Source of the DNA: a virus
DNA length: 20,245 nt
Direction: 5' to 3' (one strand)
Virus record (IMG/VR): IMGVR_UViG_3300005918_000176
Span: 1 to 20,245 of that record
In this document: piece after piece, positions 1,166-20,155 of the stretch
Layout of the letters: the number at the start of each line of letters is the position of its first letter
Numbering within the stretch: the first letter of the stretch is position 1
Notes under the pieces: model-generated
Told to the model about the DNA's origin: nothing
Seen by the model: the letters and a program-made list of their open reading frames with translations, nothing else
Database searches by the model: none
Translations under genes and position numbers: made by a program

Positions 1166-1239
1166 ATATATAATGTAAATTATTTTGAAATAAAAGCAAT
1201 ACACCTATTGAAAAAATTACAAAAAAATATATAATGTAA
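1166..1239. promoter_or_regulatory. Divergent control region with 13-bp direct repeat
   Basis: The 77-bp gap between the two divergent genes is very AT-rich. It holds two copies of ATATATAATGTAA, at 1166-1178 and 1227-1239, 61 bp apart. The right copy contains the -10 box of the rightward promoter. The left copy sits directly before the leftward start codon. A regulator binding both copies could control both arms at once; this is inferred from position only. Confidence 0.5.
1208..1235 (+). promoter_or_regulatory. sigma70-like promoter of the recombination operon
   Basis: TTGAAA (1208-1213) and TATAAT (1230-1235) are spaced by 16 nt. The -10 box ends 6 nt before the ATG at 1242, so the transcript would start at or beside the start codon. 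The first gene has no Shine-Dalgarno sequence, which fits a leaderless mRNA. Confidence 0.6.
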
Positions 1240-1241
1240 CT

Positions 1242-1652
1242 ATGCAGCTCAAAGGTAGACCGGATCCAGCGGAAGAAGATGTGCAGTTAGCTTTATGCGA
1301 ATATGTCAGAAAAAAATATCCGCAGGTCTGGTACAGGAGCGATCTTGGTGGGATCTGGTTGCCCTTTAAACTTGCAAAGAAAAACAAGAAAATGCAGAGG
1401 GGGAGAGGGTTTCCGGACTTCAGCCTTCCCTTAAGGACAGTATTATATGCCGGACTTTACATTGAAATAAAGAAAAGCCGTAAAGAGCTTTTCAAAAAAG
1501 ATGGCACCATGAGGAGATCAAAGCACATTACAGAGCAAAGAGAATGTATGCACTGGCTTAGGTCCCAGGGATTCTTTGCAGTGTTTGGTGCTGGCCTTGA
1601 TAATTGCATGGCTGTAGTAGACTTTTATATGCGCCTGGCTAGACGGGCATAA
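1242..1652 (+). CDS. VRR-NUC domain nuclease
   Basis: This 136-residue protein matches the stand-alone phage VRR-NUC family. An N-terminal helix (EEDVQLALCEYVRKKYP) is followed by the catalytic core RGFPDF (D59), an E75-x-K77 motif in YIEIKKS, then KHITEQRECMHWLRSQGF and AVVDFYM. VRR-NUC is a PD-(D/E)XK fold with structure-specific or nicking DNA cleavage in characterised relatives, needing a divalent metal. It is the first gene of the rightward operon and is followed by a Rad50-like ATPase and RecT, so a role in phage recombination or replication-fork processing is likely. Full length for the family and all key residues present. Confidence 0.88.
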   Translation: MQLKGRPDPAEEDVQLALCEYVRKKYPQVWYRSDLGGIWLPFKLAKKNKKMQRGRGFPDFSLPLRTVLYAGLYIEIKKSRKELFKKDGTMRRSKHITEQRECMHWLRSQGFFAVFGAGLDNCMAVVDFYMRLARRA

Positions 1653-1669: not shown

Positions 1670-3532
1670 ATGGACGCAGAAAACTGCACCGTAGTAAAAT
1701 TAATGCAACTTGAAATTCGGGAGTTTATGGGAATAGAACGATTTCACATGGCCCCGAATGGTAAAAACATGAGCGTATGTGGCTACAACAAGGCTGGCAA
1801 GACAACCATTGCGTCGGCAATCACATGGTTGCTGGCCGACAAGGACCTCAGTCTTAACCAGCCCGCAAACTTCAGCATAAAGCCCATGGACACCGCAGGT
1901 AATATAATTGAAGGAAAAACCCCTTATGTTACCGTAAAGTTTTCGGTTAACGGTGATCCGCTTACTCTTGGCAAGGGGTATTACGAGAAGCGAACCAAGA
2001 GAGGAAAGCTGACCGGACACACCGCCCGGTATTCGGTGAACGACGAGGCCAACGTAAAAAAGAAGGATTTTGACAAAGCCATCGCAGAGATAGGTAGCGT
2101 TAAAACTTTGCAACTCCTCATGTCTCCCTTCTTCTTCAACACGCTCCCCCAGGCCGAGTGCCGCAAGATCCTTTTTGAGGTTGGCAACGTAAAAGCAGGT
2201 GACGAGCTGGTAAGGGCAGAGAAAAAGAGAACGCAGCTTAAAGCGGAGCTGTCAGTAGTTGAACGGGAGACGATAGCGATAAAGCCGGTAATCAAAGAAC
2301 TCAGATCTAATGCAGGCACCCTATCACCCCACGATGCCGAAACGGCAACGAATCAACTGGTTAAAATTGACAAAAAGATTGCGGCTATCAATGCCGGGCT
2401 GGTTGATCCTGATGTCACGAGAAAAATAAGCAAGCTTGAGGATGAAATAAAAACCCTCGAATTTGACGAAAGCACAGATATCATAAGAAAAAAGACGCTT
2501 GCGAAGCTTGCGGTAGAAGCCCTGGAAGGGAAGTTAAGAAACGAAAAGATGGATATAATCGGGGCACTGGAAACAGCCGGGAGAAAGGCTTTACTGGCAG
2601 AATCGATAGAAGAAGAGATAGCAGACTGCCGTACCATGTTCGGTGCCCTTATCGCCGAACCAGAACCGAACCATGGCATCTGCCCAACATGTCACCAGCC
2701 AATCACTGACAAAAAGTCAATGGAAGCTGCGGTGTCTGCGTTTAAAGAGGATAGGGCAAAAAGGGCAACAGAAATAAATGTCAGAGGCAAGGACCTGACG
2801 GGGAAGTTGTCGGCAATCAGAGAAGATATGAAAAAACTTGCCATCGGCAGGGAGGTACACGAAAAAAACGAAGCAAGCTTCAACACAGAGCTTGAAATTG
2901 CACAAACGAAGCTGGACAGCCTGTCAGATCCAACCACAGATGAAAAGCCGGACGGCAGCAATACTGATGCTCTCAAGAAAGAACTATCCGATCTTATCGA
3001 AAGCAGTGCCATTACTGAAGATACAAAGGTATTGCTCGAAGAGGTAAACGCGGAAAGGACGAAGACTAGCGATATCATTAGTGCATGTAAGGAAGCGGTA
3101 AAATCGGTAAAGAGAATTGACGTCCTCAAGAAAAAAGAGAAGGACGGGTGGAAAAAGGTTGAAAAGATCGAGGATGACATTACCAAGATCGAAGAAGAGG
3201 TAAGGGCAGAAGCAGAAAAGCTTGAGGGACCCATCAACGCCATGTTTGAAAGGTGCTCTTTCAAGTTTATGGAAGACAAAATATCGTCCGGCTTTAAGCC
3301 GTGCTGCGTGACAGTGGTAAACGGGGTTCAATGGGGACATGGCCTCAACACGGAGGGAGAAGTTAGCGCCGGACTTGATATTGTCAGAGTGCTATCTAAG
3401 CATTATGGTATATCTATGCCGTGCCTGGTTGACAATGCTGAATCAGTCCTTGATTTTGCTGACCCCGACATGCAGTTAATACGCTTTTATGCTGACAAGA
3501 ATTGCGAACAGCTAGAAGTGTTTTTCGATTAG
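1670..3532 (+). CDS. Rad50/SbcC/SMC-like ATPase with zinc hook
   Basis: The 620-residue product has an ABC-type Walker A near the start (GYNKAGKTT, about 38-46), long charged coiled-coil segments on either side of a central CPTC zinc-hook motif (C338 and C341), then a C-terminal half with a degenerate signature region (NTEGEVSAGLDIV) and a Walker B-like LVDNAES (about 586-592). This is the plan of phage Rad50/RecF/SMC-like ATPases that work with nucleases at DNA ends. I place the start at ATG 1670, which follows AAGGAGG with a 5-nt gap, rather than the TTG at 1655 inside that binding site. No SbcD-like partner is visible; the flanking VRR-NUC or the MBL-fold protein could supply nuclease activity, which is an inference. 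Confidence 0.85.
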   Translation: MDAENCTVVKLMQLEIREFMGIERFHMAPNGKNMSVCGYNKAGKTTIASAITWLLADKDLSLNQPANFSIKPMDTAGNIIEGKTPYVTVKFSVNGDPLTLGKGYYEKRTKRGKLTGHTARYSVNDEANVKKKDFDKAIAEIGSVKTLQLLMSPFFFNTLPQAECRKILFEVGNVKAGDELVRAEKKRTQLKAELSVVERETIAIKPVIKELRSNAGTLSPHDAETATNQLVKIDKKIAAINAGLVDPDVTRKISKLEDEIKTLEFDESTDIIRKKTLAKLAVEALEGKLRNEKMDIIGALETAGRKALLAESIEEEIADCRTMFGALIAEPEPNHGICPTCHQPITDKKSMEAAVSAFKEDRAKRATEINVRGKDLTGKLSAIREDMKKLAIGREVHEKNEASFNTELEIAQTKLDSLSDPTTDEKPDGSNTDALKKELSDLIESSAITEDTKVLLEEVNAERTKTSDIISACKEAVKSVKRIDVLKKKEKDGWKKVEKIEDDITKIEEEVRAEAEKLEGPINAMFERCSFKFMEDKISSGFKPCCVTVVNGVQWGHGLNTEGEVSAGLDIVRVLSKHYGISMPCLVDNAESVLDFADPDMQLIRFYADKNCEQLEVFFD

Positions 3533-3543
3533 AATATTGTCAG

Positions 3544-3575
3544 GTCGTCCCCAGTAGGGGGGCGTTGATTGAAAC
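3544..3575 (+). repeat. Solitary type I-C-like CRISPR repeat, copy 1
   Basis: This 32-nt unit starts GTCGTCCCC, has loop AGTAG, and ends GGCGTTGATTGAAAC. It matches the length, stem layout and conserved GATTGAAAC end of type I-C CRISPR repeats. Positions 3-9 pair with 15-21 (one G-U), giving a 7-bp stem. It begins 12 nt after the ATPase stop codon and ends 53 nt before the recT start, in the sense direction of the operon. There is no second repeat one spacer length away, so it is not an array. It matches copy 2 at 28 of 32 positions. Confidence 0.88.
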
Positions 3576-3628
3576 GACTAGATATACCAAACTCATTAAT
3601 TCGCTAACCATACCAGGAGGATACACTT

Positions 3629-5188
3629 GTGGCACAAAACACCGGAAAACCGCAGACATCTGAAGAAAAACAACTTGCCCTAAAAGAGACGGCAGCAAAA
3701 AATCTTCAGATACAAGAACAGTTCATCGGCCAATCACTTGGAGAAATGACAAAGGGTGGAACTCTCAGCGCGACCAAGTTCCAGCAACGCATCCTTAAAA
3801 ACTACTTCATCGAGACCACTATGGTTCTTGAAAAGGCGGAAGCTAAAAGAAAGAGAACTACATACAGGCAAGATCCGGTTCCAGTTATTTGGGAAAACGT
3901 AAACCTGACAAAGTTTGTTGTTGACGCGGCTGCAATGTGCCGCATCGGCCTTGATCCATCACAGAAGAACCACGTTAACCTCATACCTTACAAGAACAAT
4001 ACAACGGGTCTGTATGATATCGGCTATATCGAGGGATATAGGGGACTTGAAATTAAAGCCACAAAGTATGGGCTTGACGTCCCAGATTCAGTAACCGTAC
4101 ATCTTGTATACGCGACTGATCACTTCGTACCACACTTCAAGGACCGGTCGAACAAGTTTGATTCCTACGAATTCACCATCGACAATCCGTTTGATCGAGG
4201 TGAGGTCATTGGAGGCTTTTATTATCACTCATACGCCAGTAATCAAGAAAAGAATAAGCTCGTCATAATGTCTGTCGAAGAAATTCTGAAGAGAAAGCCT
4301 ACCTATGCCAGCCCTGAATTTTGGGGAGGCGACAAGGATGAGTGGAAGAACGGCAAAAAAACAGGCAAGAAAGTAAAGGTCGATGGCTGGCCTATCGAAA
4401 TGATGCTTAAGACCATGTACCGCGCGGCGTACAATGGCATCACTATTGACAGCAAAAAGGTCGATGATGATTTCATGCAGGCGAAGGAGAGCGAGGGGAC
4501 GCTACTCGCGGCCGAGTCTGAACTCCGTGCTATCGAAAACGAGCACAAAGACCTTGTTGACGTCACTCCTGACACGCAAGAAGTTGCGAAGAGCGAGGCG
4601 GACAACGTTGACAGGAAGACCGGAGAAGTTGTTGATGCAGAATTCGAGGTGTCCGGACCTATCGAAAACGCCCTTGAAACCGCGAAAAAGGAAAAGCTCG
4701 ACCTACAGAAAGCGGCCGAGGTAGAAGCCAAGCTGGTAGCTGTAGCCAAGAAGGCAAAGAAGGCCAGGAAGGATGCAGCGGAAGCGGCAGCGGCGGCGGA
4801 AGCGGAAGCGGCCAAGAAGACCGAAGAGAAGGACGCATCCGAGAAAAAGAAACGTCCAGAAACGCAGTCAAGGTCATCTATGGAAAAGTCAGATCCCGCT
4901 GCAAACGGAAAGGGAACTCTTATCGGAGCGAAGGAAAAGAACCCGCTCTGTGTGACAAACCAGTGTGCATACATTGATTCATGCACGGACAGAGACAAAG
5001 CTCATCAAGCAGTTATAAAAGAGCACTACGGTCATTTGTGTCAATCGGACAGAGCAAAAATCACCGCATACGCCAAGGCTGGACCTCCCGAAGCAAAGAC
5101 AACAAAGAAGGATGCCGGAGCACAAGAAGCAAGCCAAGCCGAATTCCCTATTCCGGACGGTTCTGAAATTGAGCATATGGAGTTCTAA
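3629..5188 (+). CDS. recT: RecT-family single-strand annealing protein with C-terminal extension
   Basis: Residues from about 60 to 310 carry RecT landmarks: AAAMCRIGLDPSQKNHVNLIPY, then GYIEGYRGLEIKATKYG, VYATDHFVPH, GGFYYHSY and a C-terminal WPIEMMLKTMYRAAYNG. RecT proteins bind and anneal single-stranded DNA during phage recombination. The start is GTG at 3629, preceded by AGGAGG with an 8-nt gap. At 519 residues it is much longer than usual RecT. After the core comes an Ala/Lys/Glu-rich, probably helical linker (about 350-410), then a Cys/His cluster, C441-x4-C446-x5-C452-x18-C471 with H466 and H469, that could bind zinc or another metal. CRISPR-like repeats flank the gene on both sides. 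The last codon overlaps the start of the next ORF (TAATG). Confidence 0.88.
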   Translation: MAQNTGKPQTSEEKQLALKETAAKNLQIQEQFIGQSLGEMTKGGTLSATKFQQRILKNYFIETTMVLEKAEAKRKRTTYRQDPVPVIWENVNLTKFVVDAAAMCRIGLDPSQKNHVNLIPYKNNTTGLYDIGYIEGYRGLEIKATKYGLDVPDSVTVHLVYATDHFVPHFKDRSNKFDSYEFTIDNPFDRGEVIGGFYYHSYASNQEKNKLVIMSVEEILKRKPTYASPEFWGGDKDEWKNGKKTGKKVKVDGWPIEMMLKTMYRAAYNGITIDSKKVDDDFMQAKESEGTLLAAESELRAIENEHKDLVDVTPDTQEVAKSEADNVDRKTGEVVDAEFEVSGPIENALETAKKEKLDLQKAAEVEAKLVAVAKKAKKARKDAAEAAAAAEAEAAKKTEEKDASEKKKRPETQSRSSMEKSDPAANGKGTLIGAKEKNPLCVTNQCAYIDSCTDRDKAHQAVIKEHYGHLCQSDRAKITAYAKAGPPEAKTTKKDAGAQEASQAEFPIPDGSEIEHMEF

Positions 5189-6003
5189 TGTCGTCCCCCG
5201 CAAGGGGGCGTGGATTGAAACTAATGTCTGACCCGATTATATTTAAATCCTATGGATCTAGCAGTAAGGGAAACCTCTACACCGTAAGTGACGGTGAGAC
5301 TACCGTGCTGCTTGATCCCGGATTTTCCGTCAAACAAATCAAGAAACGCCTGGACTTCAGCCTTAGCTCAAGCATAGACTTTGCCCTGGTCAGCCATGAG
5401 CACATGGACCATTGTGCCGGTGCCGAAGGACTTGCAAATCTTGGAATTGATGTGTTTATGGGCGGCGAGACAGCGGATAACATGAAAATTGATCCGTATA
5501 ATATCCACAGGGTTAACCCGTTTGAACAGTTTACCCTCGGGACCTGGACCGTTAAGGCAGTCCCTGTGCCGCACATGGGCCTAAAGACCGACCCTAAATC
5601 AAAAGATGGGAAAGGAAAGGTGCTTGTTAAAATCCCAAACCTCGCCTATTTGATGCTGAGTGGAGAAAATAAGTTTTTATTCATGATTGATTGTAGCGAG
5701 AGCCCATTTTTTTATCGCAACCTCACACACGTTGCTATAGGAGTAAACTATGATTGTGCGGTCCTATCTGAAAATATGGCGAAGGGAAGCTTACCAGTGT
5801 TTCTCGGCAGGCGGATACTGGACAGTCACATGAGCCTACAGACAGCCAAAAGGTTTCTGAGTGCCGTATGTCATGACGAAAACTCTGGTTATATGCAGGA
5901 GATACACCTCTTACATCTATCAGAAAAAAACATAGTGGCCTCAGATGCTCTAGATGAAATAAGGAGGCATACCGGTGTCGCTGTATTCGTACATGAAGGA
6001 TAA
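5188..6003 (+). CDS. Metallo-beta-lactamase-fold hydrolase (YycJ/WalJ-like)
   Basis: The H-x-H-x-D-H metal motif is present as HEHMDH, preceded by YGSSSKGN and LLDPGFS, and followed by VPVPHMG, FMIDCSES, ILDSHMSLQTAKRFL and LHLSEKN. This pattern fits the YycJ/WalJ branch of MBL-fold nucleases. MBL-fold genes next to recT are common in phages and are suspected to supply exonuclease activity. Start choice: ATG 5188 overlaps the recT stop (TAATG) and has GGAG 5 nt upstream, but then the CRISPR-like repeat is translated as an N-terminal SSPARGRGLKL extension. ATG 5224, just past the repeat, gives the usual family N-terminus (MSDPIIFKSYGSS) but has only a weak TGGA upstream. Both are in frame because the repeat unit adds 36 bp. 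Confidence 0.85.
   Translation: MSSPARGRGLKLMSDPIIFKSYGSSSKGNLYTVSDGETTVLLDPGFSVKQIKKRLDFSLSSSIDFALVSHEHMDHCAGAEGLANLGIDVFMGGETADNMKIDPYNIHRVNPFEQFTLGTWTVKAVPVPHMGLKTDPKSKDGKGKVLVKIPNLAYLMLSGENKFLFMIDCSESPFFYRNLTHVAIGVNYDCAVLSENMAKGSLPVFLGRRILDSHMSLQTAKRFLSAVCHDENSGYMQEIHLLHLSEKNIVASDALDEIRRHTGVAVFVHEG
5190..5221 (+). repeat. Solitary type I-C-like CRISPR repeat, copy 2
   Basis: This 32-nt unit starts GTCGTCCCC, has loop CGCAA, and ends GGCGTGGATTGAAAC. It is a nearly ideal type I-C repeat with the same 7-bp stem as copy 1. Differences between copies are at repeat positions 10, 12 and 14 (all in the loop) and 23 (in the 3' handle). It starts 1 nt after the recT stop. The 8-mer CTAATGTC occurs at 5185-5192 and again at 5221-5228, so the unit looks like a 36-bp insertion with a short duplication. 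In type I-C systems Cas5c cuts repeat RNA at the stem base and leaves an 11-nt tag, here UGGAUUGAAAC. Confidence 0.92.
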
Positions 6004-9267: not shown

Positions 9268-12200
9268 TTATTGTCTCCCCTTACTTCCATATAGTAGATT
9301 AAAGTTACTCATTCTTGTTCTGATGCCTTCGTTTATCGCGTCAACCGTTTTTTCTTTCGACTCTTTGGCAAGTGCCTTGTTTGCTTCCACCTCATTTCGC
9401 CTGCCCCTTAGCCTCCGGATCTCTTTTCGGTCAAGCTTTACCCTGTCTCTGAATCGTAGTTGCCACGAATATTTTGTCCTAACACTGGAAAGCTTTTCAA
9501 TGTCCTTAATTTGTGCAAAATGCTTTTCAGACTTTTCGGCATATCTTATTTCATTAAGATTATCATAAAACTTTGTCCGAGTATAGAATTCGCTTTTCTC
9601 ACCGTAAAGCCTTCTGGCGAAAGGAATCTTGCTAACCTTAACATCTTTCTTTGAAAGGGTTGCGGGCAATTCAAGGACATTACCCATAAACTTGCCCGCC
9701 CCACCGGTAAAGGTGTCTACAAACAAGTCAATAATCTCTGGAGATATATCAATTTTTCCGGGGACAACCTCGTCTCCACCGGTCAAGTCATTTAATTCCT
9801 TAGATATGACTTTAGATAAACCCCTGACACTTTTCCAGTGCATTTGATATTCAGGTTTCGGAACGTCAAATGGCATTTGCTCTGGTTTAAGAGGAGCTCC
9901 GGCAAAGTTCTTATTCTCTTTCCATTGAACAAACGGATCAAGTATGGTCGGAGCAATAAATTGTAGAATAGATCCTTCCCCTCCTACAGGATTAAATGAG
10001 CTTATGACCGCACTCGCCAATTTTCCAGCAGCACCTATAGCGGAGAACTCTTTTTTATTTGGATCTACTGCCTCGCCTATTACCTGGCCGAGCACATGGA
10101 GGGTGTTATATCCCCATGGAAGCGGACAAATCTTAAAATAGTCTCCGTTCGGACGCATAAGAATCAGATTTCTCTCCTTAATCCAGCTAGGGATTTTGTC
10201 GTATTTCTTTTCTCCGTCGTCGTCGTCACCACCTAATGTCCTGTTTAAAATGTCCAGCATTACAGCGAAACCAACGGTCCCGTACATCATAGCTCGAACT
10301 TTCTTATTTCTTTTTGCTGCCATTATTAGCCTTGCGCTGCCCTGTATGTTGGCACCAAAAAACAAGTAGAAAGCACCCAGGGCCTGGCCGACGTCTCCCC
10401 TGCGGTTAAAGTTAACGGTAAGGTTTTTAGCCGCTGAAGCAGCCTTTTCCTTGCTGATGCCAGCCTTTACAAGATGTTTGTATGTTGACAGCCTGATCGC
10501 ATTCTCAACGGCAACATTTTCTCGGCTGATCAAGGTAAAGGCACTCTTAATAATTTTTCTGGCGGATACCCCGGGACCAGACCCAAGCAATGAAAGCTTT
10601 TTCTTAAGAGCCTTCTCCCTGGACTCTGTGTCTTTGTAGTACTCCATCCATCCGGTTTGGCCACCATGTTCTCTAAAATCTTTATAGTCTTGTGACCATT
10701 CAGTATCGTATTTTCCCCTAATGCCCTTCCGTATCCCGGCAAGAGCCTTAAAGACATCTTTGAAAATTCGGCCCCGAATTTTCTCGGCCTGTGTGTCGTT
10801 GATGTTATAGCCAGCGGTTTGAAGATCTTTCAGAAAGTTATTTAATATAAATTCAGGGCTAGCAGCAGTATTCACTATTGCCAGGTAGCGATTTATCTTA
10901 GACATTATATTTATAATGGCATTACCGCTTCCAGATCCCAGGTTTTTCAAGCCAATGGCTATTCTTTGGGCATGAACGTTCTGCTCGTCGAAAGTTATCG
11001 TGTGCTCAACCCCGTCAACCTTTACCACTAAGACATTATCTTTGAATTTGTACGCACGGTCCTTTCCATACACCACTTCGCCCAAGGAAGAGGGTAGCCC
11101 GGTCATTGGATCAACCTTGCCGTCAAACACCCGAGTTTGTTCAGGGTAACCTTCTGGCCGTTTACCGCGACTTCTCCAGCTCCTTTTGCTCAGTAAAGGC
11201 TTTAATTCCGGGGCGTCAACCTCCCACATGCTGCTTTTATGCTTACTCGCAAACTTGAGCATTGCACGGCCAATCTTTGCTTTCTCTGCCCTTATGATTG
11301 AGGCCTCATGTTGAGCCAAAATGTTAGTAAGTATGTTCACCGCACGTCTCTGTGAGCTACCAGTGAGGCGCCGCTTTGACTCAGGACCGGCAATATTCAT
11401 CCCTTGCCCTCTTTTTGGCATCCCGGCGTCTTTACCTTCTCTCTTGAGAGGGACATAAAACTTGTAAGCACTGGACCACGCCTCAATTTCCTCGGGAGTA
11501 GCCAAGCCCTCCGCTACAAGTAAATCCCTGGTTGACCCAACCACATCGTCAACCTTTTTGGCAAGAATTTCCATGGCCTCATTGCCTTCGTACTCATTAA
11601 GGATGCCATCGGCCTCTTCGTCTGTCATCCCGGAAAGGGCTTCATTGTCCTCTCTTTTTGGATTCAAGGCCATAAATCTGGCGTTGGCCTCTCTGGCGTG
11701 TCTCGCATAAAGGTATCGCTCAAGATTTTCAAGACCGATGCCTGTCTTGACTATGTCTTCCGTGAGCGGATCAATTACGTTTGCGTCAAATTCCTCTACT
11801 CGTCTCGCGACCTGATCATGGTAAAGCTCTTCAGTCTGATAGGTGTTTTCATCGTCCTCAAGCTCTACATGCGGAGGTAATACAATGGCATCCTGTACAA
11901 TCTTGAGAGAGTTGAAACGGTCCTGAATTTTGAATTGAATAAGGTTGAAAGCCTGCCGCACACTTCCTTCTATAGGTAGGTCGAAACCTTCAGGAGATAT
12001 GGGACTTTCAAAAACCTTCTTCGCAACCTTAATCCCTTCAATGTTTTCGGTGGTTAACGAAGCCCCTGTACCCTTGAGGGTCTGCTCGACCAGTGCAGCG
12101 GCCCAGGCAGAAAGGTCCTGCTCATCCGAAAGCTTTAAATGTGCCGGAAGCTGCGGAGGCCCGCCCCTTATTATACCGTGATAGGACTCTATCGCCTCCC

Positions 12201-14979
12201 TTAGAAATTGTGACCTAAAGCTAAGGTCAAGGGCTTCAGCATGGTTTCCCTTTTTCTTTTGAACTTCCGATTCCATTAAGACAGAATGTCTCATTTTATC
12301 AATCTGTTCTATCTCTTCTGGAGTTGCTATTTTGCCAAAGTCTGCGGCCTCCCTCGCGCTTCTGAAGTCTGGAATCCCCTCGGAAAGCTTGAGGTCGCTA
12401 TCTTTAATCGATATGCTGGTAGCCTTAAGGTTTCTCGCTGTTTTCCCTATAGCACTTGACGCAAGGGCAATGTAGTCCTCTTCGGTGAACCTGCCAGGGC
12501 TTACGCCAAGATGTTTCACAAGCCAAGCCTTGGTCGCTGCAATTAATTTTCTGTGCCACTCAAGCTTTCTGTTACCCCTGGCCTCCACAAAGTATGCAAG
12601 GGCCTCTTCGTTTACATTTTCACGGGGAGTTGATGAAGGAACCACGGCGTATGCTCTTGCAATGGCCCGGCCCAGGTCTGAGTTTTCATATCTCTTGGCA
12701 GCAAAGTTAGCAAAGATATACTGGCTTAACTTTTCGCCAAAGATTTTTTTGTAGCCATAGTGGACACCCAGTTCGTGAAGAAGCACAGACCAGGCATGCC
12801 CTTTTTTGATTCGACCAGGAATCATATATACAGTGCTTGATCCATCTGAATATGTAACAATGAAAGCCTTGGCTGTTTCTACCGTTCTGCCGAACTTGGC
12901 TGTCGCAGCCTTGCCATCTATGAACCTGATCTTTCCTTCTCTGATAAGGGAATTAGTGGCATCATTCCCTATGTGGCTGGATATTTCATTCCCGATAGAT
13001 ACAACATTACTGGCTATCTGCCGACGTAACAGTAGTGGCGTCTTGCTCTTTAACTTTTCCAAAGAAGTACTATCAAAGGATGATTCAAACGCAGGTCCCT
13101 TTTCGCCCTCTTTCTCTTTTTGTTCAGATGCCTCAAATTCTACATCAGCGGTGCGGTCACCTTCGTCGGGTATCCTGTGTTGCTTGCTGTCATCAGGTGG
13201 TGCAGATCGTTCACCAGGGACACCGCCAGCGCCTTCGGCCCCAGCTTCTCCCGTCCCTCCGGTTGAAAGAGAGCTTCCTCTTCCCCCTCCTCCAGATAAT
13301 TCAGGAACCCCAGGGCTTCCGCCGGTTCCAGCATCAGAAGGTACTCCACCTGCTCCCTCAGCTCCGGAAGGTTGTTCCGGTTGAACAATGGCACCTCCTG
13401 GTACAGCGCCCACTCCATCAGCTTCAGGGAGTGTAGCTCCCAGTTTGACGGGTTCTGATCGAGTTCCTGAAGCGCCTTTTTTGCCAGTAAGTTGATCGGT
13501 TCCTGGTTTTCCTTGTTCGCGTTGTCTTGCATTGTAGACATCCTCCAATAGTGGCACGGCATCTTCTACCGCTTCCACTGATTCAGTTACAATATTTTCG
13601 AGTGAAGACGTTTTACCTGTCTTATCTATAACTATAAGCACGTTATCGAAGTTTGTCCCATATTTCACGTATTCCTTTCCAGAAATAGGTATAACGGCCT
13701 TAACATTATATTTAGATGTAATGCCAGCCCACCATTTCTTGAAGGTAGGTTTATCCATTGCCATGCCACGACCAGCAATGGCCACAAGGCGCCCGCCTTC
13801 CTCAAGCCGCTTAAGCCCCTCCTCTATGTGGTCGGCACCAACCTTTGTATCCATCTTGGTGCCTTTCATGTTTACGTCAGCGGAGAAGGGCGGATTCATC
13901 AATACGACTGTTGGTTTCACGTTCTCGGGAAGAATGGCATTCAGGTGTGCGGCATTCTCGCGGTACACCTTAATACCAAAGTTTTCGAGGATATCTGCAC
14001 GGCGGTCGCTGATCTCGTTCGCGACTACTTCTTTAGGGTTTTGAGACTGTGCCGCAGCGACAAGGCTACCGACGCCTGCACTCGGTTCGAGGACAACATC
14101 GTTCCTGCCTATGCTGGCCACCCATGCAGCCAGATAACTATGTGATGGAGGCGTTGAAAACTGTTGTAAGTCAATCTGGTCTTTCGTGCGCTTCGTTTGA
14201 GTAACGATCCCGGCCATTGTTGCTTTTAGATATCTTATTGCCTCTGACGCGGAGGCTATCCCCTTCACTGCAACTTTCACCCACAAGTTAACCCCAAGCT
14301 CTTGCGCTTCGTAGGCATCCCTGGACGTATATTTTCCGTCAGTCTGAGTGCCACCAAAGGCATCGTCAGCCTGCCTAAACAGATCTCTCCATGTGTATTG
14401 CTTGCCAGAGGATATCATTTCAGTGACCCAGGAAGCCAGCTTTACAGTAGGTGTTTGTTCCTTTTTCGGTTCTGTCTTCTTCTCCGGGGTTGCAGGTTCT
14501 TCTATCTGTTTAAGCCCGGCACTGGTTAAAGCCCTGTCGATGGTTTCGCCTATCGACCATTGAGCAGGCGCTCCGGGTCCGAGGGTTTCCCTGACGCCGC
14601 TTTCTGTTATCTGTAGATAGTACGTACTTCCGGGCTTATCACGCATGACCTTATAGGTTATGCCTTCGTGCTGTGCTACACCTACACTTTTAAGACGTTC
14701 AATAAATTTATCCTTGGTATATAAACCCGGCTTCTCTGGTTTGATGGTCGCAGCAGGCTTCTCAAATTTCTCCGGACCCTTATAATTCTTTTTAAGTACA
14801 GACACGACGCTGTCATACTCAGTCTGCGCTTCACTTACCTTGGCCTTGACAATACTAAGAATAGCTTCATGATCGGAGATACCCTTGTCTTTGCTGACTT
14901 CTCGCGCACGGGAAACCATTTCCTTGATCTCTTTGGGCTTAAAATTGTTTTTGCGTAAACATTTTATGGCATTTTTCAT
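9268..14979 (-). CDS. Giant polyvalent protein: DNA methyltransferase, zinc peptidase and LPD-type domains
   Basis: The 1903 residues form several blocks. After a helical N-terminus comes an adenine-type methyltransferase (QFSTPPSHSYLAAW at about 273; motif I VLEPSAGVGSL, 296-306; motif IV NPPF, 362-365). A Gly/Ala/Pro-rich linker spans about 490-605. A zinc metallopeptidase-like domain has HELGVH at 735-740 with NEEALAYF downstream. Long helical regions follow, then a C-terminal part from about 1360 (NRYLAIVNTAASPEFILNNF, RRGDVGQALGAFYLFFG) resembling the LPD38 domain. This is the layout of phage polyvalent proteins, which are packaged in the virion and enter with the DNA; P1 DarB is a functional analogue that shields DNA from restriction. 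It lies among virion genes, as expected. The start overlaps the previous stop (TAATG), with GGGGA upstream. Confidence 0.85.
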   Translation of the reverse strand: MKNAIKCLRKNNFKPKEIKEMVSRAREVSKDKGISDHEAILSIVKAKVSEAQTEYDSVVSVLKKNYKGPEKFEKPAATIKPEKPGLYTKDKFIERLKSVGVAQHEGITYKVMRDKPGSTYYLQITESGVRETLGPGAPAQWSIGETIDRALTSAGLKQIEEPATPEKKTEPKKEQTPTVKLASWVTEMISSGKQYTWRDLFRQADDAFGGTQTDGKYTSRDAYEAQELGVNLWVKVAVKGIASASEAIRYLKATMAGIVTQTKRTKDQIDLQQFSTPPSHSYLAAWVASIGRNDVVLEPSAGVGSLVAAAQSQNPKEVVANEISDRRADILENFGIKVYRENAAHLNAILPENVKPTVVLMNPPFSADVNMKGTKMDTKVGADHIEEGLKRLEEGGRLVAIAGRGMAMDKPTFKKWWAGITSKYNVKAVIPISGKEYVKYGTNFDNVLIVIDKTGKTSSLENIVTESVEAVEDAVPLLEDVYNARQREQGKPGTDQLTGKKGASGTRSEPVKLGATLPEADGVGAVPGGAIVQPEQPSGAEGAGGVPSDAGTGGSPGVPELSGGGGRGSSLSTGGTGEAGAEGAGGVPGERSAPPDDSKQHRIPDEGDRTADVEFEASEQKEKEGEKGPAFESSFDSTSLEKLKSKTPLLLRRQIASNVVSIGNEISSHIGNDATNSLIREGKIRFIDGKAATAKFGRTVETAKAFIVTYSDGSSTVYMIPGRIKKGHAWSVLLHELGVHYGYKKIFGEKLSQYIFANFAAKRYENSDLGRAIARAYAVVPSSTPRENVNEEALAYFVEARGNRKLEWHRKLIAATKAWLVKHLGVSPGRFTEEDYIALASSAIGKTARNLKATSISIKDSDLKLSEGIPDFRSAREAADFGKIATPEEIEQIDKMRHSVLMESEVQKKKGNHAEALDLSFRSQFLREAIESYHGIIRGGPPQLPAHLKLSDEQDLSAWAAALVEQTLKGTGASLTTENIEGIKVAKKVFESPISPEGFDLPIEGSVRQAFNLIQFKIQDRFNSLKIVQDAIVLPPHVELEDDENTYQTEELYHDQVARRVEEFDANVIDPLTEDIVKTGIGLENLERYLYARHAREANARFMALNPKREDNEALSGMTDEEADGILNEYEGNEAMEILAKKVDDVVGSTRDLLVAEGLATPEEIEAWSSAYKFYVPLKREGKDAGMPKRGQGMNIAGPESKRRLTGSSQRRAVNILTNILAQHEASIIRAEKAKIGRAMLKFASKHKSSMWEVDAPELKPLLSKRSWRSRGKRPEGYPEQTRVFDGKVDPMTGLPSSLGEVVYGKDRAYKFKDNVLVVKVDGVEHTITFDEQNVHAQRIAIGLKNLGSGSGNAIINIMSKINRYLAIVNTAASPEFILNNFLKDLQTAGYNINDTQAEKIRGRIFKDVFKALAGIRKGIRGKYDTEWSQDYKDFREHGGQTGWMEYYKDTESREKALKKKLSLLGSGPGVSARKIIKSAFTLISRENVAVENAIRLSTYKHLVKAGISKEKAASAAKNLTVNFNRRGDVGQALGAFYLFFGANIQGSARLIMAAKRNKKVRAMMYGTVGFAVMLDILNRTLGGDDDDGEKKYDKIPSWIKERNLILMRPNGDYFKICPLPWGYNTLHVLGQVIGEAVDPNKKEFSAIGAAGKLASAVISSFNPVGGEGSILQFIAPTILDPFVQWKENKNFAGAPLKPEQMPFDVPKPEYQMHWKSVRGLSKVISKELNDLTGGDEVVPGKIDISPEIIDLFVDTFTGGAGKFMGNVLELPATLSKKDVKVSKIPFARRLYGEKSEFYTRTKFYDNLNEIRYAEKSEKHFAQIKDIEKLSSVRTKYSWQLRFRDRVKLDRKEIRRLRGRRNEVEANKALAKESKEKTVDAINEGIRTRMSNFNLLYGSKGRQ
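13140..13532 (-). CDS. Probable overprinted gene inside the polyvalent gene (+1 frame)
   Basis: ATG 13532 is preceded by GGAGG with a 9-nt gap. The 130-residue product (MQDNANKENQEPINLLAKKA, then NWELHSLKLMEWALYQEV, LPELREQVEYLLMLEP and LNYLEEGEEEALF) reads as a normal acidic helical protein, with CTG, GAG, AAC and CAG codons dominating. It covers residues 483-613 of the giant protein, where the main frame encodes only a Gly/Ala/Ser/Pro-rich linker. That contrast, plus the binding site, is the case for a real second gene. The last dozen or so residues look less natural. The family and function are unknown. An accidental open frame caused by the linker composition is the alternative. Confidence 0.55.
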   Translation of the reverse strand: MQDNANKENQEPINLLAKKALQELDQNPSNWELHSLKLMEWALYQEVPLFNRNNLPELREQVEYLLMLEPAEALGFLNYLEEGEEEALFQPEGREKLGPKALAVSLVNDLHHLMTASNTGYPTKVTAPLM

Positions 14980-15227
14980 TACAATTTCCCCGATAAAACA
15001 ATGGCTATTACGACACTAACTACATTTTCATCGTCATTGACCTGACGCCTATGAAAATCTCTAAGGTACTCTCTCTCTCCTGCGTCAGCTAAAAGACGCC
15101 CGCCGCCACCACCACCAGACCCACCCCGTGTAACCGCCACAATCAGGGCAATATAGCCATCTGTGGCGCAACCAATGGGAATGTTGCTTGAAATATAACC
15201 ATTGGTTGCAACGTCTAAAGGAATCAT
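14979..15227 (-). CDS. Small protein with glycine-rich segment, unknown function
   Basis: The ATG overlaps the previous stop and the TAA overlaps the next start (both TAATG), so the gene is translationally coupled on each side. The 82-residue product has MIPLDVATNGYISSNIPIGC, a repeat-like pair of NGYI/DGYI segments, then a run of glycines (GGSGGGGGG) and a charged C-terminus. Segments like NGYISSNIPIGC suggest a surface-exposed virion piece. No family is recognised. Confidence 0.6.
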   Translation of the reverse strand: MIPLDVATNGYISSNIPIGCATDGYIALIVAVTRGGSGGGGGGRLLADAGEREYLRDFHRRQVNDDENVVSVVIAIVLSGKL

Positions 15228-16309
15228 TATGATGTCCTTGTTACAATACTTAAGCTTTTACCGTCTCCCGATATTGCCAGGCTTATTGTTCCAACGGCCC
15301 TGGATGTTGGTGTAACTGTCATTGGATTGGATAAATCCAACCCCTGAAGTTTATGAAGATTGTCGAGGTGCGAGCCTCCGGCCTCAAGCCAAGTCTTAAT
15401 TTCACCGACCGTTGGAGGGGTTGTTGCATTTCGAGAAGACACGGCCACATCCAGATTGCTGACGTCAGCTTTATACTGATTCGGATTATCAAGGTCGGTC
15501 TGAAGCGCAGCTATCGCGGTGTCGTATTCGCTCGGTACGGAGAACCCCGTCGCCGTAATCCAGTTACCCTGATTAGTTTGGAGCTCATCAGTGTCACCTA
15601 CAATATCGGAAAGTTTAGTGCTGTTGTCATCCATCTCCGTTCTGATCTCAATGACAGTCGGTGGAGTGGTCGCATTCCTTGTGGAAACAGCCACATCCAG
15701 ATTAGAGACGTCGGCCCTATACTGGGCAGGGTTGTCCAGGTCAGTTTGGAGAGCGGCTATCGCGGTGTCATATTCACCCGCCGCAGATCGAGTGGACACC
15801 AACACGTCTAAATTGGAGACGTCAGCTTTGTACTGATCAGGACTATCAAGCTTTGTCTGGAGAGCGGCTATCGGCACATCATATTCATTGGGGACTGAAA
15901 ATCCAGTAGCTTTGTACTGAGCAGGATTATCTAAGTCAGTTTGTAGAGCGGCTATTGCCACATCGTACTCGTTGGGCACTGAGAAGCCTGTAGCCGTAAC
16001 CCAACTGCCCTGGTTGGTCTGAAGCTCGTCGGTATCATCCAGCACCATATTTACTAAACTGTCAAGATAACAATCCTCCGCAGCATAGACGGGGCTCCCG
16101 CCGCCAGTATCCCAAACAATAGAACCAACAAAATCATCGGGAAAACTTATGTACTTGCCGTACACGCCGCCTCCGACTTCAAAAATTGCGGCCGTTGATC
16201 TTGCAACCTCGACAGTACCGTCCACTTTAAGCAGGGTATAGCCTATGGTCCCGACCAACCCAGTTTGCGAGCTGCCCATGGAGCAAATTTTGGAAATCGA
16301 TATTGCCAT
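15227..16309 (-). CDS. Repeat-containing probable virion protein
   Basis: The 360-residue product starts with a globular part (about 1-90, TGLVGTIGYTLLKVDGTVEV) resembling phage structural domains. It then holds four copies of EYD-x-x-IAALQT-x-LD-x-P-x-QYKA, at about 114-134, 142-162, 179-199 and 261-281. These are interleaved with ADVSNLDVAVSTRNATTPP units and two copies of DTDELQTNQG-x-W-x-TATGFSVP. The C-terminus (VTPTSRAVGTISLAISGD) looks beta-rich. Repeats of this type form extended fibres or collars in phage tails. Its start abuts the previous stop (TAAATG) with only a weak binding site. Confidence 0.7.
   Translation of the reverse strand: MAISISKICSMGSSQTGLVGTIGYTLLKVDGTVEVARSTAAIFEVGGGVYGKYISFPDDFVGSIVWDTGGGSPVYAAEDCYLDSLVNMVLDDTDELQTNQGSWVTATGFSVPNEYDVAIAALQTDLDNPAQYKATGFSVPNEYDVPIAALQTKLDSPDQYKADVSNLDVLVSTRSAAGEYDTAIAALQTDLDNPAQYRADVSNLDVAVSTRNATTPPTVIEIRTEMDDNSTKLSDIVGDTDELQTNQGNWITATGFSVPSEYDTAIAALQTDLDNPNQYKADVSNLDVAVSSRNATTPPTVGEIKTWLEAGGSHLDNLHKLQGLDLSNPMTVTPTSRAVGTISLAISGDGKSLSIVTRTS
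15442..16039 (-). repeat. Internal tandem and interleaved repeats within the virion gene
   Basis: Four units encoding EYD-x-x-IAALQT-x-LD lie in this stretch, three of them 28-37 codons apart (start to start) and the fourth 82 codons on, with two larger duplicated blocks beginning DTDELQTNQG. DNA identity is high between copies, such as the recurring AGAGCGGCTAT on the plus strand. Copy number could change by recombination. Confidence 0.75.
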
Positions 16310-16585
16310 TTATTTCTTTCCCATTACCGCCTTTATTTTTGCCGCGTCTTTTTTTGTTTGCTCTTCCACCGCCATTTCTTTTTCTTTTGCCTGGCTTTCC
16401 TCTTCAATCAATCTTTTCAGACAAAAAATCTCACCTTGACGAGTGAGCATGCCGTCGTGAAGATCAGAAAGGTCTTTCTGTAGTTGCACCTGAGCTTGCT
16501 GAGCTTGTTTCTGCATTTGCAGTCTTTTATAATCAAACTGTGCAATTTCTTGTTCTACCTGTTTTATCCGTTCTGCCTTGTTCAT
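16310..16585 (-). CDS. Small coiled-coil protein
   Basis: The ATG overlaps the previous TGA (ATGA), with GGAG 8 nt upstream. The 91-residue product is almost wholly charged helix rich in Gln, Lys and Glu (KQVEQEIAQFDYKRLQMQKQ, LKRLIEEESQAKEKEMAVEE, ending KAVMGKK), consistent with a coiled coil. No family is recognised. Its position among tail genes suggests a minor structural or assembly factor. Confidence 0.65.
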   Translation of the reverse strand: MNKAERIKQVEQEIAQFDYKRLQMQKQAQQAQVQLQKDLSDLHDGMLTRQGEIFCLKRLIEEESQAKEKEMAVEEQTKKDAAKIKAVMGKK

Positions 16586-17088
16586 GTGGTAATCTCCATT
16601 GCTGTATCTTCCTGTTGTTTCGCCTGATAAGCAGCCACCACTTCAGGGGTATGAAGTTTTTCTGCTATTGCTTTGCTCATCACGTCTGCCCTATCTGGAT
16701 CATCACCGGGATTTATCCAGGTCCGGTGGAATTTCTTACTCACCTCTTCTCCTTCGTCGAAAATTCTGGTTATTCGTCTAACTGCAATCCTGCCAAAATC
16801 ATCGAGCACACGATCATATGTTACGATCTCTTCAAGCCCTGTCCCGGTCGGCTCTTTCTTCTCAATAGCAAAAGCGGCCAGTGTGTCCTTATTGGTAATC
16901 GCCGCAACTATATCCTTTGACCTGTCGTCCCAATCTGCCATGTGTCCTGGATCGATAGGTGTCATAGGATCGGAGTATTTATGATCAATAAAGTTACCTT
17001 TATCATCTTGGTATTCAGTAATTATTCTGAGTTGAAGGTTTCCGTTTTCGGTTATTGAATGGTGAAATTTCATATTTTTAGACAGCAT
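16582..17088 (-). CDS. Phage protein of unknown function, 5' end altered by homing endonuclease insertion
   Basis: The 168-residue product contains MKFHHSITENGNLQLRIITE, DPGHMADWDDRSKDIVAAI and TWINPGDDPDRADVMSKAIAEKLH. No family is recognised. The first ATG at 17088 lies within the last codons of the endonuclease gene (11-nt overlap). A second ATG at 17073 gives MKFHHS. The original start appears to be the stranded MKKLLKFHHS exon at 17814-17849, on the other side of the endonuclease gene, so the current start was probably supplied by the insertion. Expression may be reduced or depend on readthrough from the endonuclease gene. Confidence 0.7.
   Translation of the reverse strand: MLSKNMKFHHSITENGNLQLRIITEYQDDKGNFIDHKYSDPMTPIDPGHMADWDDRSKDIVAAITNKDTLAAFAIEKKEPTGTGLEEIVTYDRVLDDFGRIAVRRITRIFDEGEEVSKKFHRTWINPGDDPDRADVMSKAIAEKLHTPEVVAAYQAKQQEDTAMEITT
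17060..17072. repeat. 13-bp direct repeat flanking the homing endonuclease gene, left copy
   Basis: TGGTGAAATTTCA occurs here and again at 17824-17836, one copy on each side of the endonuclease gene. Here it encodes the MKFHH start of the interrupted gene. Allowing one mismatch, the match extends 3 bp further. Confidence 0.8.
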
Positions 17089-17794
17089 TATCCTGTTTTC
17101 CCTGTTTTTTCTTTTCCCAGTATTTTTTCACTCTAATACTTCGTGCCAACCTTCGTTCTTTTGTATATGACGCCCTCATCCTTCTCTTTGTTTCTTCTGT
17201 TTTTGGGACACCCTTCTTAGCTTTACTTATCTTTGCTTTATGTTCTTCTGTAAACACCCTACCTTTTTGTGCTTTACTCATATTTTTTATCTGTTCTTCA
17301 GTAAATATTATCCCCTTATGAGCTTCACTCATTTTCTTTTTAGTCTCTTCAGTAAGCTTTCTGCCATAAGCAGGGTGGTTTCTTATATCGACATATCTTG
17401 CTTTGGCACTTTCACTTATCTTACGCTTTGCTTCTTCGGAACATTTTATACCTTTCTGAAATTCAGACATTTTTAGTTTGGATTCTTCACTATGCTTAAA
17501 ACCAATTGCACTTCCACCACCAATTAAATGATTGTATCCTTTTTCAATTACCCTGTAATAACAAATATAATATATTTCTAATCTATTTAATTCTTCTCGG
17601 TCAGCACACTCATGTATAATCTTCCATTTAAAATCTTTTGGGTTATACTTTCTTAATGCCTTATAAAAATGGTTATCATACCTGTTCCCTTTGGCTTCAT
17701 AATAATGCTCTTGTTTTCTTTTTTTAAGAGTATGTATAGTTTGACCAATATACATCTTGCCATTTAATTTATTTGTAGCTGAATAAATAATCAT
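17078..17794 (-). CDS. GIY-YIG homing endonuclease with NUMOD3 repeats
   Basis: The N-terminal domain is GIY-YIG: MIIYSATNKLNGKMYIGQT, KKRKQEHYYEA, FYKALRKY and RLEIYYICYY. It is followed by about six NUMOD3-like DNA-binding units with the form [FKR]-x-[ST]EE-x-K-x-KMSE-x-x-KG, for example RKLTEETKKKMSEAHKG and RVFTEEHKAKISKAKKG. Such proteins are free-standing phage homing endonucleases that cut an allele lacking the gene and copy themselves in by repair. The gene is clearly more AT-rich than its neighbours. It sits between the tail fibre gene and the rest of an interrupted gene, and a 13-bp direct repeat flanks it. Start ATG 17794 has no clear Shine-Dalgarno sequence; a TACAAT box lies just upstream. 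Confidence 0.92.
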   Translation of the reverse strand: MIIYSATNKLNGKMYIGQTIHTLKKRKQEHYYEAKGNRYDNHFYKALRKYNPKDFKWKIIHECADREELNRLEIYYICYYRVIEKGYNHLIGGGSAIGFKHSEESKLKMSEFQKGIKCSEEAKRKISESAKARYVDIRNHPAYGRKLTEETKKKMSEAHKGIIFTEEQIKNMSKAQKGRVFTEEHKAKISKAKKGVPKTEETKRRMRASYTKERRLARSIRVKKYWEKKKQGKQDNAV

Positions 17795-17813
17795 ATCTTA
17801 TTGTATCACATAT

Positions 17814-17849
17814 TCATTTAGAGTGGTGAAATTTCAGTAATTTTTTCAT
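17814..17849 (-). pseudogene. Stranded first codons of the gene interrupted by the homing endonuclease
   Basis: Directly after the tail fibre stop, AGGA and a 6-nt gap lead to ATG 17849 and the short frame MKKLLKFHHSK, then TGA. The KFHHS part and its DNA repeat the start of the gene at 16582-17088 on the far side of the endonuclease gene. The ribosome binding site and the position show where that gene used to begin. Confidence 0.7.
17824..17836. repeat. 13-bp direct repeat flanking the homing endonuclease gene, right copy
   Basis: Second copy of TGGTGAAATTTCA, inside the stranded MKKLLKFHHS exon. Together with the left copy it brackets the endonuclease gene, like a target duplication or the trace of homing repair. 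Confidence 0.8.
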
Positions 17850-17857
17850 TTTAATTC

Positions 17858-20155
17858 CTACGCTGCAAGATAAGTTATATCAATTCCCAAAGCCCAAGCA
17901 GTATCTACATCAGCGTTATCTAAAGTGTGAGCTGTACCGTTATCTGCAAGTTGAATGAGTCCAAAATAATCATTCGCTCCATAAATAGAAGCAAAAACCC
18001 CATTAGGTAAACTACCACCATGATCAGACAGAAATACCATAGTAAAAACTCTTTCTGCAATTCCGGTTAATTGTAAACATGTAAAGGGTATAGACACATG
18101 AAGATTTCCAACCGGAGAACTTGCAGATGTAATAGCTAGCTCTCCAGCAAGATGCACAGTCCGGCCAATTTTTGTGTAGGCAAAAGTCTTGTTGGTTGCC
18201 ATAACATAACTACCTGACGTACTACCGGTAATGGTGGGTTCGTATGTCCCCTCCTCATAATCATCGAGCGTATTGGCGTCAGAGCTTGGAACTGCCGTGG
18301 CAGGGAACTTTATTTGACCTTTTGCTAAAATAACCACACTGTTATGGTCAATCCTCACTGCTTCTGTTAAATTATTCCCAGTATTAGCAGAATCATCCAC
18401 ATAAAACGCTAAGCCACCCTGATCTGCGTCTGCTGTAGTTTCAACAGCAGCTATAGCGGCCATTTTTGTGCTTGCTCTTCCAGGACCTCCTAATGTAAGT
18501 GCCGCTCCTATATTGTTATCCCCCGTCCCCTCAGAGGTGTTTTCTAAAAATAAAGTGTCTCCACTTAAAGTGGTTGTATAAGGATCGAAGGCTGTTGTTG
18601 CTTTTATATGTCCCCTGGCAAGAGGAGTCACCCCGATACCAATTTGCCCAGTAGCATCTGCCTGTAAAGCCGGATCTGGACTTCCATCACTCGCCACCAG
18701 CTCACTGTGCCTGTGCAAAGCATCAGCTATGGAATTGTTGGTTAAAGTCTCAAGCTCTGCCCCTGTGGCCGTTGTGTCGTTGTGGCTGGCTATGGAATGA
18801 GCTTCAGCATGGTGGTCGTCTGTAGAAACATCGCTCAGGCTGTCATGGGAGAGGCCCAGGGCGTCAATGTCAACCTTGGTCTGGTCTGCGGCAGCACCAT
18901 CCTCCACATTGATCAGGGTCCTAATCTGGGCAGGAGTCAGCGCAGCTATATCTCCGGCAGTTATCCTCCCGACAAGGGTCTGCTCCCCGACTGTTAAGGC
19001 AGCAGGCGTATCGTCAGCGTCGGCCTTTAGGAGAGTGTTGGCGTCAAATAGCGCTTTTGTAACCAAACCAGATAAATCCTGGTCACCAGTATTCACCCCA
19101 GATTGATTACCTAAGTTTGTCAGCTCAGTAGAGGTAAGATGATAATACCCTCCAATCGCTCCACCATCTAATCCGCCAAGATCGTTATGATTAGACACCG
19201 AGGTTCCGGAAAAGAAAGTATCTGTTACCATCTGTACTTCGGTAAAAGATCCGCCCGATTGAGGAGCTATAATACATCCAAGCAATGCGCCAAAATAAAC
19301 CAGATGGTCAGGCTTTGATGGTTCGGGAGCGGTTTCTGCTTCAGCCAGGGTGTAGGAATCTCTGCCATAAACGACATACACATGCCCGTCTATGTGCATA
19401 TAAACCCAGAAGCAGCCATACTTGTTATTTCCAATCGTATTTAAAGTCCCAGTGCCGTCGTCGTAATGCTCGAAATCTATTACATTAGAAGCCGCTCCAT
19501 AGGTCCACCCTGAAGGTGCGGCTCGATATACGGGCGAAAAGGTTATTCCAGAAGAATCATAGATAGCTACCGTAAAAGAATTTATTCCACCATAGATTAT
19601 GCCTTCTGTCGTTATAAAGTTGTTCGTTCCGGTATAAGATATGGTAGCTCCACTCTGTAGCGCCAAAGACCTTACCGCTCTTGCCAGCTCATGGAGTTTC
19701 TGCACTCCATCCTGAAAACGGTATCCAGTGCTTGCCGTATGGACCACATTAGAGCTGTCTCTCATCACCCTACCGATAGGAATACTTCTCTTGTCGGTGT
19801 CGTATAGGTTTGATCCAGATATGCTTATTGTGGGCGAGCCGCCGTTGTAATTAAGATGAGCCCTATAGATGGTGTCAACTACAGTTATGGCCTGGTTGTC
19901 TTGCTCAGCCAAAGACACTTCCACCAGTGCTCCGGTTGCGCTATTGGTGGATCTCAGAAGGGCAGTGAGCGCGGCCACCTTGAATGTGTTGGCGTTTGTT
20001 CCGTCAGATATCTCTCCACCGGTTACAATCATCGGAGAGTCAGCATCATCAGAAATATTTTTCAGCGAGGTTAACTGAGAATCTATCTGAGCATGGGTAT
20101 TCGAGCCTATGCTCGCAAGCTCAAGGTGATCATCTATTATTCTGAGTGCAGTCAT
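17858..20155 (-). CDS. Phage tail fibre or receptor-binding protein
   Basis: The 765-residue product has features typical of phage tail fibres. The N-terminal part (about 1-300) contains ADSPMIVTGGEISDGTN and THAQIDSQL-type segments. A stalk-like middle carries SVSNHNDLGGLDGGAIGGYYHL, LTPAQIRTLINVEDGA, EAHSIASHND and ALHRHSE. The C-terminal domain has GQIKFPATAVPSSDANTLDDY, EEGTYEPTITG and YTKIGRTVHLAGELAITSA, a block seen in many tail fibre tips. It would bind the host surface. Its start directly follows the previous stop (TAAATG). It is the first complete gene of the late arm in the window. Confidence 0.85.
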   Translation of the reverse strand: MTALRIIDDHLELASIGSNTHAQIDSQLTSLKNISDDADSPMIVTGGEISDGTNANTFKVAALTALLRSTNSATGALVEVSLAEQDNQAITVVDTIYRAHLNYNGGSPTISISGSNLYDTDKRSIPIGRVMRDSSNVVHTASTGYRFQDGVQKLHELARAVRSLALQSGATISYTGTNNFITTEGIIYGGINSFTVAIYDSSGITFSPVYRAAPSGWTYGAASNVIDFEHYDDGTGTLNTIGNNKYGCFWVYMHIDGHVYVVYGRDSYTLAEAETAPEPSKPDHLVYFGALLGCIIAPQSGGSFTEVQMVTDTFFSGTSVSNHNDLGGLDGGAIGGYYHLTSTELTNLGNQSGVNTGDQDLSGLVTKALFDANTLLKADADDTPAALTVGEQTLVGRITAGDIAALTPAQIRTLINVEDGAAADQTKVDIDALGLSHDSLSDVSTDDHHAEAHSIASHNDTTATGAELETLTNNSIADALHRHSELVASDGSPDPALQADATGQIGIGVTPLARGHIKATTAFDPYTTTLSGDTLFLENTSEGTGDNNIGAALTLGGPGRASTKMAAIAAVETTADADQGGLAFYVDDSANTGNNLTEAVRIDHNSVVILAKGQIKFPATAVPSSDANTLDDYEEGTYEPTITGSTSGSYVMATNKTFAYTKIGRTVHLAGELAITSASSPVGNLHVSIPFTCLQLTGIAERVFTMVFLSDHGGSLPNGVFASIYGANDYFGLIQLADNGTAHTLDNADVDTAWALGIDITYLAA

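Follow-up and report, generated by a model that had tools for sequence, protein, structure and literature searches.

The window analyzed here is the whole 20,245-bp stretch of an IMG/VR virus record, which is linear and probably a fragment. Its genes, called with a home-made finder, include a recombination operon that encodes an SbcC/RecF-like AAA ATPase, a RecT-like single-stranded DNA annealing protein, and a metallo-beta-lactamase-fold hydrolase (MBL), all on the plus strand, with two short repeats, R1 and R2, in the order ATPase, R1, recT, R2, MBL (Table 1). Homologues of the ATPase occur in 99 phage records. Elsewhere, the window holds a 1903-aa protein with an LPD38 polyvalent-protein domain (9268-14979), diverged tandem repeats of 84 to 136 nt (15399-15991) within a minus-strand ORF (15227-16309), and a GIY-YIG/NUMOD3 homing-endonuclease-like gene (17078-17794) in a region poor in GC (about 39% over 16001-18000).

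Table 1. Features of the recombination operon and of the two repeats within it (positions in the window)
Feature	Position	Strand	Remarks
Promoter-like site, TTGAAA-16-TATAAT	1208-1235		Just upstream of the first operon gene; best promoter-like site of the operon
First operon gene	1242-1652	+	phrog_824, no function assigned
SbcC/RecF-like AAA ATPase gene	1670-3532	+	phrog_77 (5.9e-32), Pfam AAA_23 (1.1e-9); ORF opens at 1655
TTC (type I-C PAM)	3524-3526	+	Precedes the upstream copy of the R1 duplication
R1 upstream copy, GATTAGAATAT	3527-3537	+	Holds the ATPase stop codon; similar to 3576-3585
R1, solitary type I-C repeat	3544-3575	+	32 nt, GTCGTCCCCAGTAGGGGGGCGTTGATTGAAAC
R1 downstream copy, GACTAGATAT	3576-3585	+	Directly at the R1 3' end
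recT-like ssDNA-annealing gene	3629-5188	+	phrog_34753 (3.3e-99); RecT-like phrog_148 (8.4e-13)
TTC (type I-C PAM)	5183-5185	+	Last recT codon; precedes the upstream copy of the R2 duplication
R2 upstream copy, TAATGTC	5186-5192	+	Holds the recT stop; last 3 nt in common with R2; exact match to 5222-5228
R2, solitary type I-C repeat	5190-5221	+	32 nt, GTCGTCCCCCGCAAGGGGGCGTGGATTGAAAC
R2 downstream copy, TAATGTC	5222-5228	+	Directly at the R2 3' end; holds the MBL start ATG (5224-5226)
MBL gene	5224-6003	+	phrog_392 (1.1e-42); operon partner of recT in other phages

R1 and R2 are 32-nt units of the type I-C kind and lie exactly where a sequence-only reading of this DNA had placed them, on the sense strand of the operon and with recT, now supported by PHROG matches, between them. 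That reading had also reported no cas genes and no repeat-spacer array, and we likewise saw neither in this linear fragment. The two units agree at 28 of 32 positions and differ at loop positions 10, 12, and 14 and at handle position 23, while all seven stem pairs and the remaining ten positions of the 3' handle are unchanged; a constant stem and handle with a variable loop is the pattern that would be expected if both copies had been kept for recognition by Cas5c. Each folds into a seven-pair I-C hairpin (about -12.6 kcal/mol) with an unpaired 3' handle ending in GATTGAAAC. The sequence that follows begins with GACTAGATATACC at R1 and with TAATGTCTGACCC at R2.

The two units stand 1,646 nt apart on either side of a gene, and no other full or partial repeat lies nearby, so that both qualify as solitary repeats (SRUs); no third copy was found in the record with three mismatches allowed. 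Both match CRISPR repeats over their full length, R2 at 31 of 32 positions of an I-C array repeat and R1 at 28 of 32. Both are also intergenic, R1 in a 96-nt gap and R2 between the recT stop and the MBL start, beginning 1 nt past the former and ending 2 nt ahead of the latter, although an in-frame alternative ATG at 5188 could extend the MBL gene and have R2 translated. A degenerate pattern covering both units, with 26 fixed positions, matched nothing but R1 and R2 in 2.9 million viral contigs. In about 85,000 genomes it hit only 10 stretches, the majority of which belong to or adjoin I-C arrays. Chance can thus be excluded as the source of R1 and R2.

Several other identities were considered for the repeats. 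A CRISPR mini-array was rejected, as there is no spacer-sized sequence between the two repeats and there are no further copies. As a promoter, R2 could pair its TTGAAA with a TATATT, but transcription would then start inside the MBL gene, and R1 showed no promoter-like site. Terminators were rejected, with no terminator-like site at either repeat, and an Rfam search of the repeats returned nothing above the gathering score.

The sequence-only reading had proposed a search for hosts with type I-C arrays of matching repeats, and such arrays exist. Repeats of the GTCGTCCCC type are uncommon (the 10 stretches among about 85,000 genomes) and are the main array repeat in two MAGs, one of Kiritimatiellae and one of Desulfovibrionaceae. 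The Desulfovibrionaceae repeat, GTCGTCCCCCGCACGGGGGCGTGGATTGAAAC, is one base off R2 (31/32) and adjoins a complete I-C cas operon (cas2, cas1c, cas4, cas7, cas8c, and cas5c), and an array on a Nitratidesulfovibrio vulgaris plasmid has a repeat 93.8% identical to R2. Spacer matching pointed to no host, and no host array with the spacer predicted below was found. Relatives of the RecT, the ATPase, or the 1903-aa protein were absent from the viral contigs, the RecT was not found in 150 genomes of the order of the Desulfovibrionaceae MAG, and neither spacers nor relatives linked that MAG to the phage.

The operon itself has a repeat-free form, which the sequence-only reading missed, as it did the flank duplication with its I-C PAM. 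The order ATPase-recT-MBL is present in phages of Aeribacillus, Psychrobacillus, Bacillus, Marinitoga, and Stenotrophomonas. In Aeribacillus phage AP45, Psychrobacillus phage PVJ1, Marinitoga phage MPV1, and Bacillus phage Pony, which share the gene order seen here, recT and the MBL gene overlap or are 0 to 1 nt apart without repeats, whereas here R2 is inserted; repeat-free junctions read TAAATG (AP45) or TAATG (PVJ1 and MPV1) or have the two genes overlap or stand apart by a few bases. R2 together with a duplicated 4 nt makes up a 36-nt in-frame insertion at the recT/MBL stop-start overlap, and deleting 36 nt at R2 restores TTCTAATG, a junction of the MPV1 type. With the 7-mer TAATGTC on both sides of R2, the recT stop and the MBL start are both preserved.

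Such a comparison bears on whether the repeats might serve to process the message, with host Cas5c cutting at R1 and R2 and so setting recT and MBL expression in CRISPR-bearing hosts. Repeats in both junctions around recT, and the tight fit of R2 between the recT stop and the MBL start, would suit this role, but relatives carry the same operon without repeats, R2 disrupts a conserved stop-start coupling, and the SRUs of other phages adjoin unrelated genes. We consider message processing very improbable.

At both repeats, the sequence directly after the 3' end resembles a stretch upstream of the repeat that is preceded by TTC, the type I-C PAM (PMC8406640). The match is exact at R2. The duplication at R1 is degenerate, with one mismatch and one gap, as if decayed, and the score of its PAM-anchored gapped alignment is reached by only 1 of the 419 TTC sites in the window.

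A short match behind TTC recalls the CreA RNAs, which guide Cascade to partially matching promoter DNA beside a TTC PAM (PMC9458426). By analogy, the first 4 to 14 nt of a guide made from the repeat might match the TTC-preceded upstream copy, where Cascade would bind without cutting and repress or block the operon, and such a site exists at R2, with TTC and a seed match of 7 nt, 5 nt upstream of the repeat. Yet the matching site lies within the operon, beside the repeat and more than 2 kb from the promoter-like site at 1208-1235, whereas the CreA guide matches a promoter next to the PAM; it also overlaps stop codons, and the length of the match varies from 4 to 14 nt. Regulation of this kind is, in our judgment, quite unlikely.

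To place R1 and R2 in a wider context, we assembled 87 nonredundant viral I-C SRUs from two scans of viral contigs, with arrays and near-duplicates removed. SRUs between co-oriented genes were sense in 47 cases and antisense in 11 (P = 2e-6), and the second scan by itself (24 SRUs) gave 15 sense and 0 antisense, a bias that argues for an RNA role of most I-C SRUs. Placement was likewise nonrandom, with 51 of the 63 SRUs of the first scan intergenic versus about 8 expected under random placement. A sense, operon-embedded position is thus the rule for I-C SRUs. Phages with several dispersed SRUs exist as well: among the 76 other viral records with an SRU, 6 carry dispersed copies, so that two copies in one record are uncommon but not unique. 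For both reasons, the presence of two copies inside an operon, which the sequence-only reading had called unusual, is not exceptional. Annotated phages and plasmids yielded too few additional SRUs, and none of the 25 best-ranked NCBIfam families for 125 neighboring proteins was an anti-CRISPR family.

One phage record (L106, record G012; also L027:5474-6490) has two identical SRUs, at 5351-5382 and 18939-18970, on opposite DNA strands and each sense within its own operon. One lies in a tail operon and the other between a gene for an IscB-like/RRXRR protein and an SbcC-like gene that is homologous to the ATPase gene of the window. In two further records, identical SRUs stand on both sides of one or two small genes (L108, record G004, at 9272, 11329, and 11926; L109, record G028, at 7626 and 8204), and in record G004 about 22 nt of upstream flank is common to two SRUs, suggesting local copying. 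In six antisense SRUs (L018, L030, L069, L075, L079, and L082), no more than about 11 nt separate the 3' end from the stop codon of the gene on the other strand; these SRUs are possibly a second class with a promoter of its own. On the host side, solitary I-C repeats with near-identical flanks lie on two contigs of one Desulfosarcina MAG (L165:1601-1632 and L166:4658-4689), outside the array of that MAG, and may be a small family dispersed in a host genome.

The sense bias also speaks to a more trivial origin, in which the units would be neutral hairpins or assembly chimeras of phage and host array. The contigs are metagenomic, and some viral contigs do hold host-like genes or true arrays. Against this, stem and handle are conserved, both flanks of the repeats continue as one operon, the common stretch, at 4 to 14 nt, is not long enough for an assembler to be misled, and some SRU sites recur with the same flanks in separate samples. 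An origin of this sort is already disfavored, and we give it only a slight chance.

The flank duplication is found in other SRUs as well. For each of the 64 triplets, we counted the SRUs among the 87 that have the triplet no more than 15 nt upstream with a copy of the first 4 or more post-repeat bases directly behind it. TTC scored 5 (R2, L027, L068, L084, and L175; permutation mean, 0.14; P ≤ 0.001), TTT scored 2 (L053 and L077), and the other 62 triplets scored 0. In L201, an 11-nt copy stands behind CTT further upstream. Because some of the tested sequences had suggested the PAM idea in the first place, the triplet test is not wholly independent; the second scan, done before the PAM was noticed, added L175 (TTC) and L201 (CTT). 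Duplications that score at least 7 and begin exactly at the repeat 3' end numbered 5, versus 0.32 expected (P ≤ 0.001), a count from which R1 was excluded. A generic target-site duplication with free offset was not significant; only with the copy fixed at the repeat 3' end did the test stand out. In R1, R2, L053, L068, and L084, the duplicated stretch covers the upstream stop codon wholly or in part. The same signature was not seen in I-F (n = 7) or I-E (n = 18) SRUs, and empty sites for L068 and L201 had no match in the phage collection. A PAM-linked capture scar is statistically supported and unexpected, as judged from the sequences of about eight cases.

The plainest account of these observations is that R1 and R2 are RNA anti-CRISPRs (Racrs) of the known type, acquired by whatever route, with the TTC-flanked duplications due to chance or a generic insertion scar. 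It agrees with the precedent of RacrIC1 in a bicistronic RNA (PMC10651486), with the sense bias, and with the roughly 90% of SRUs that have no duplication; indeed, a duplication with a YTY triplet is present in only about 10% of I-C SRUs. Chance would not be expected, however, to make a duplication begin precisely at the repeat 3' end or to make TTC prominent among 64 triplets, and we regard this account, with no particular route of acquisition, as rather unlikely.

As far as repeat sequence and context can tell, R1 and R2 are likely Racrs. We lean, if narrowly, toward a fuller reading in which they are solitary I-C repeats embedded in an operon, captured from a host I-C array and acting as Racr-like RNA decoys. 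Repeat identity and sense placement are observed; transcription, Cas5c binding, and inhibition, like every functional step of the explanation, are what we infer. R1 and R2 would be cotranscribed with the recombination operon, and each would fold into the I-C hairpin and be recognized by host Cas5c. In type I-C systems, Cas5c processes crRNA, holds its 5' handle, and nucleates the Cas7 filament (PMC7684278). On the phage message, Cas5c would cut the repeat and retain a 5' handle joined to phage mRNA, and Cas5c and Cas7 might in this way be drawn into guides made of phage mRNA that have no PAM-flanked full target and so could not target.

As to the origin of such repeats, the DNA shows an insertion in a conserved operon and a flank duplication with TTC ahead of it, and from these we envisage an escape and a recombination event. 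We propose that racr genes may be born by PAM-displacing capture, in which a repeat lands between PAM and protospacer and gives escape and an RNA decoy at once; we hold the evidence for this general claim to be evenly balanced. The post-repeat sequence, X, would be a protospacer that the host array had previously acquired, and in the array, as in the present phage, X would have directly followed a repeat 3' end. The site PAM(TTC)-X-D of the phage would have become PAM-X'-repeat-X-D, either when the phage copied the repeat and the start of the spacer back from the array or when it was joined to the array by one-ended Cas1-Cas2 integration. The left end would have been sealed to the PAM-X' remains with little or no homology, and the 0 to 9 extra bases ahead of the repeat could have come from the end of the spacer that preceded it in the array. 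The captured repeat would separate the PAM from the protospacer and mimic the flank of the host's own array, allowing escape from the spacer, and it would stay in the mRNA, where selection may keep the decoy when it is sense in a transcribed operon. Capture inside a gene would break the gene, whereas at a gene end the duplication would spare both genes, which fits the intergenic placement.

Racrs are widespread, and the route by which viruses gain CRISPR repeats is apparently unexplained in the Racr literature cited here; one review terms the broad viral recruitment of CRISPR repeats an enigma (PMC11656645). If the capture proposal is true, the scar (PAM, short duplication, and junction at the repeat 3' end) would provide such a route, with the repeat coming from the very array that attacks the site. 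It would also explain why SRUs are located at gene ends, allow targeted protospacers to be found from phage sequence alone, and give a testable prediction for phage escape experiments.

Several known systems resemble the locus. Viral CRISPR mini-arrays (PMC11656645) are likewise host-type repeats borne by viruses, but R1 and R2, with 1,646 nt and a gene between them, form no spacer unit. CreTA (PMC9458426) shares with the locus an ectopic repeat and a short TTC-preceded match to the post-repeat sequence, but the match here is beside the repeat and not at a promoter, no toxin gene was seen, and the repeats are not strongly degenerate. A further likeness is to SRUs and especially RacrIC1 (PMC10651486), which are full-length solitary repeats of a host CRISPR subtype in phages, intergenic and without an array. 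RacrIC1 is a phage I-C SRU, bicistronic with acrIC5 and experimentally anti-CRISPR, and its cotranscription with a protein gene parallels the operon setting of R1 and R2. The locus differs from RacrIC1 in having two copies, diverged from each other, on either side of recT; in its setting, a core recombination operon without a known acr gene; and in the PAM that precedes the flank duplication.
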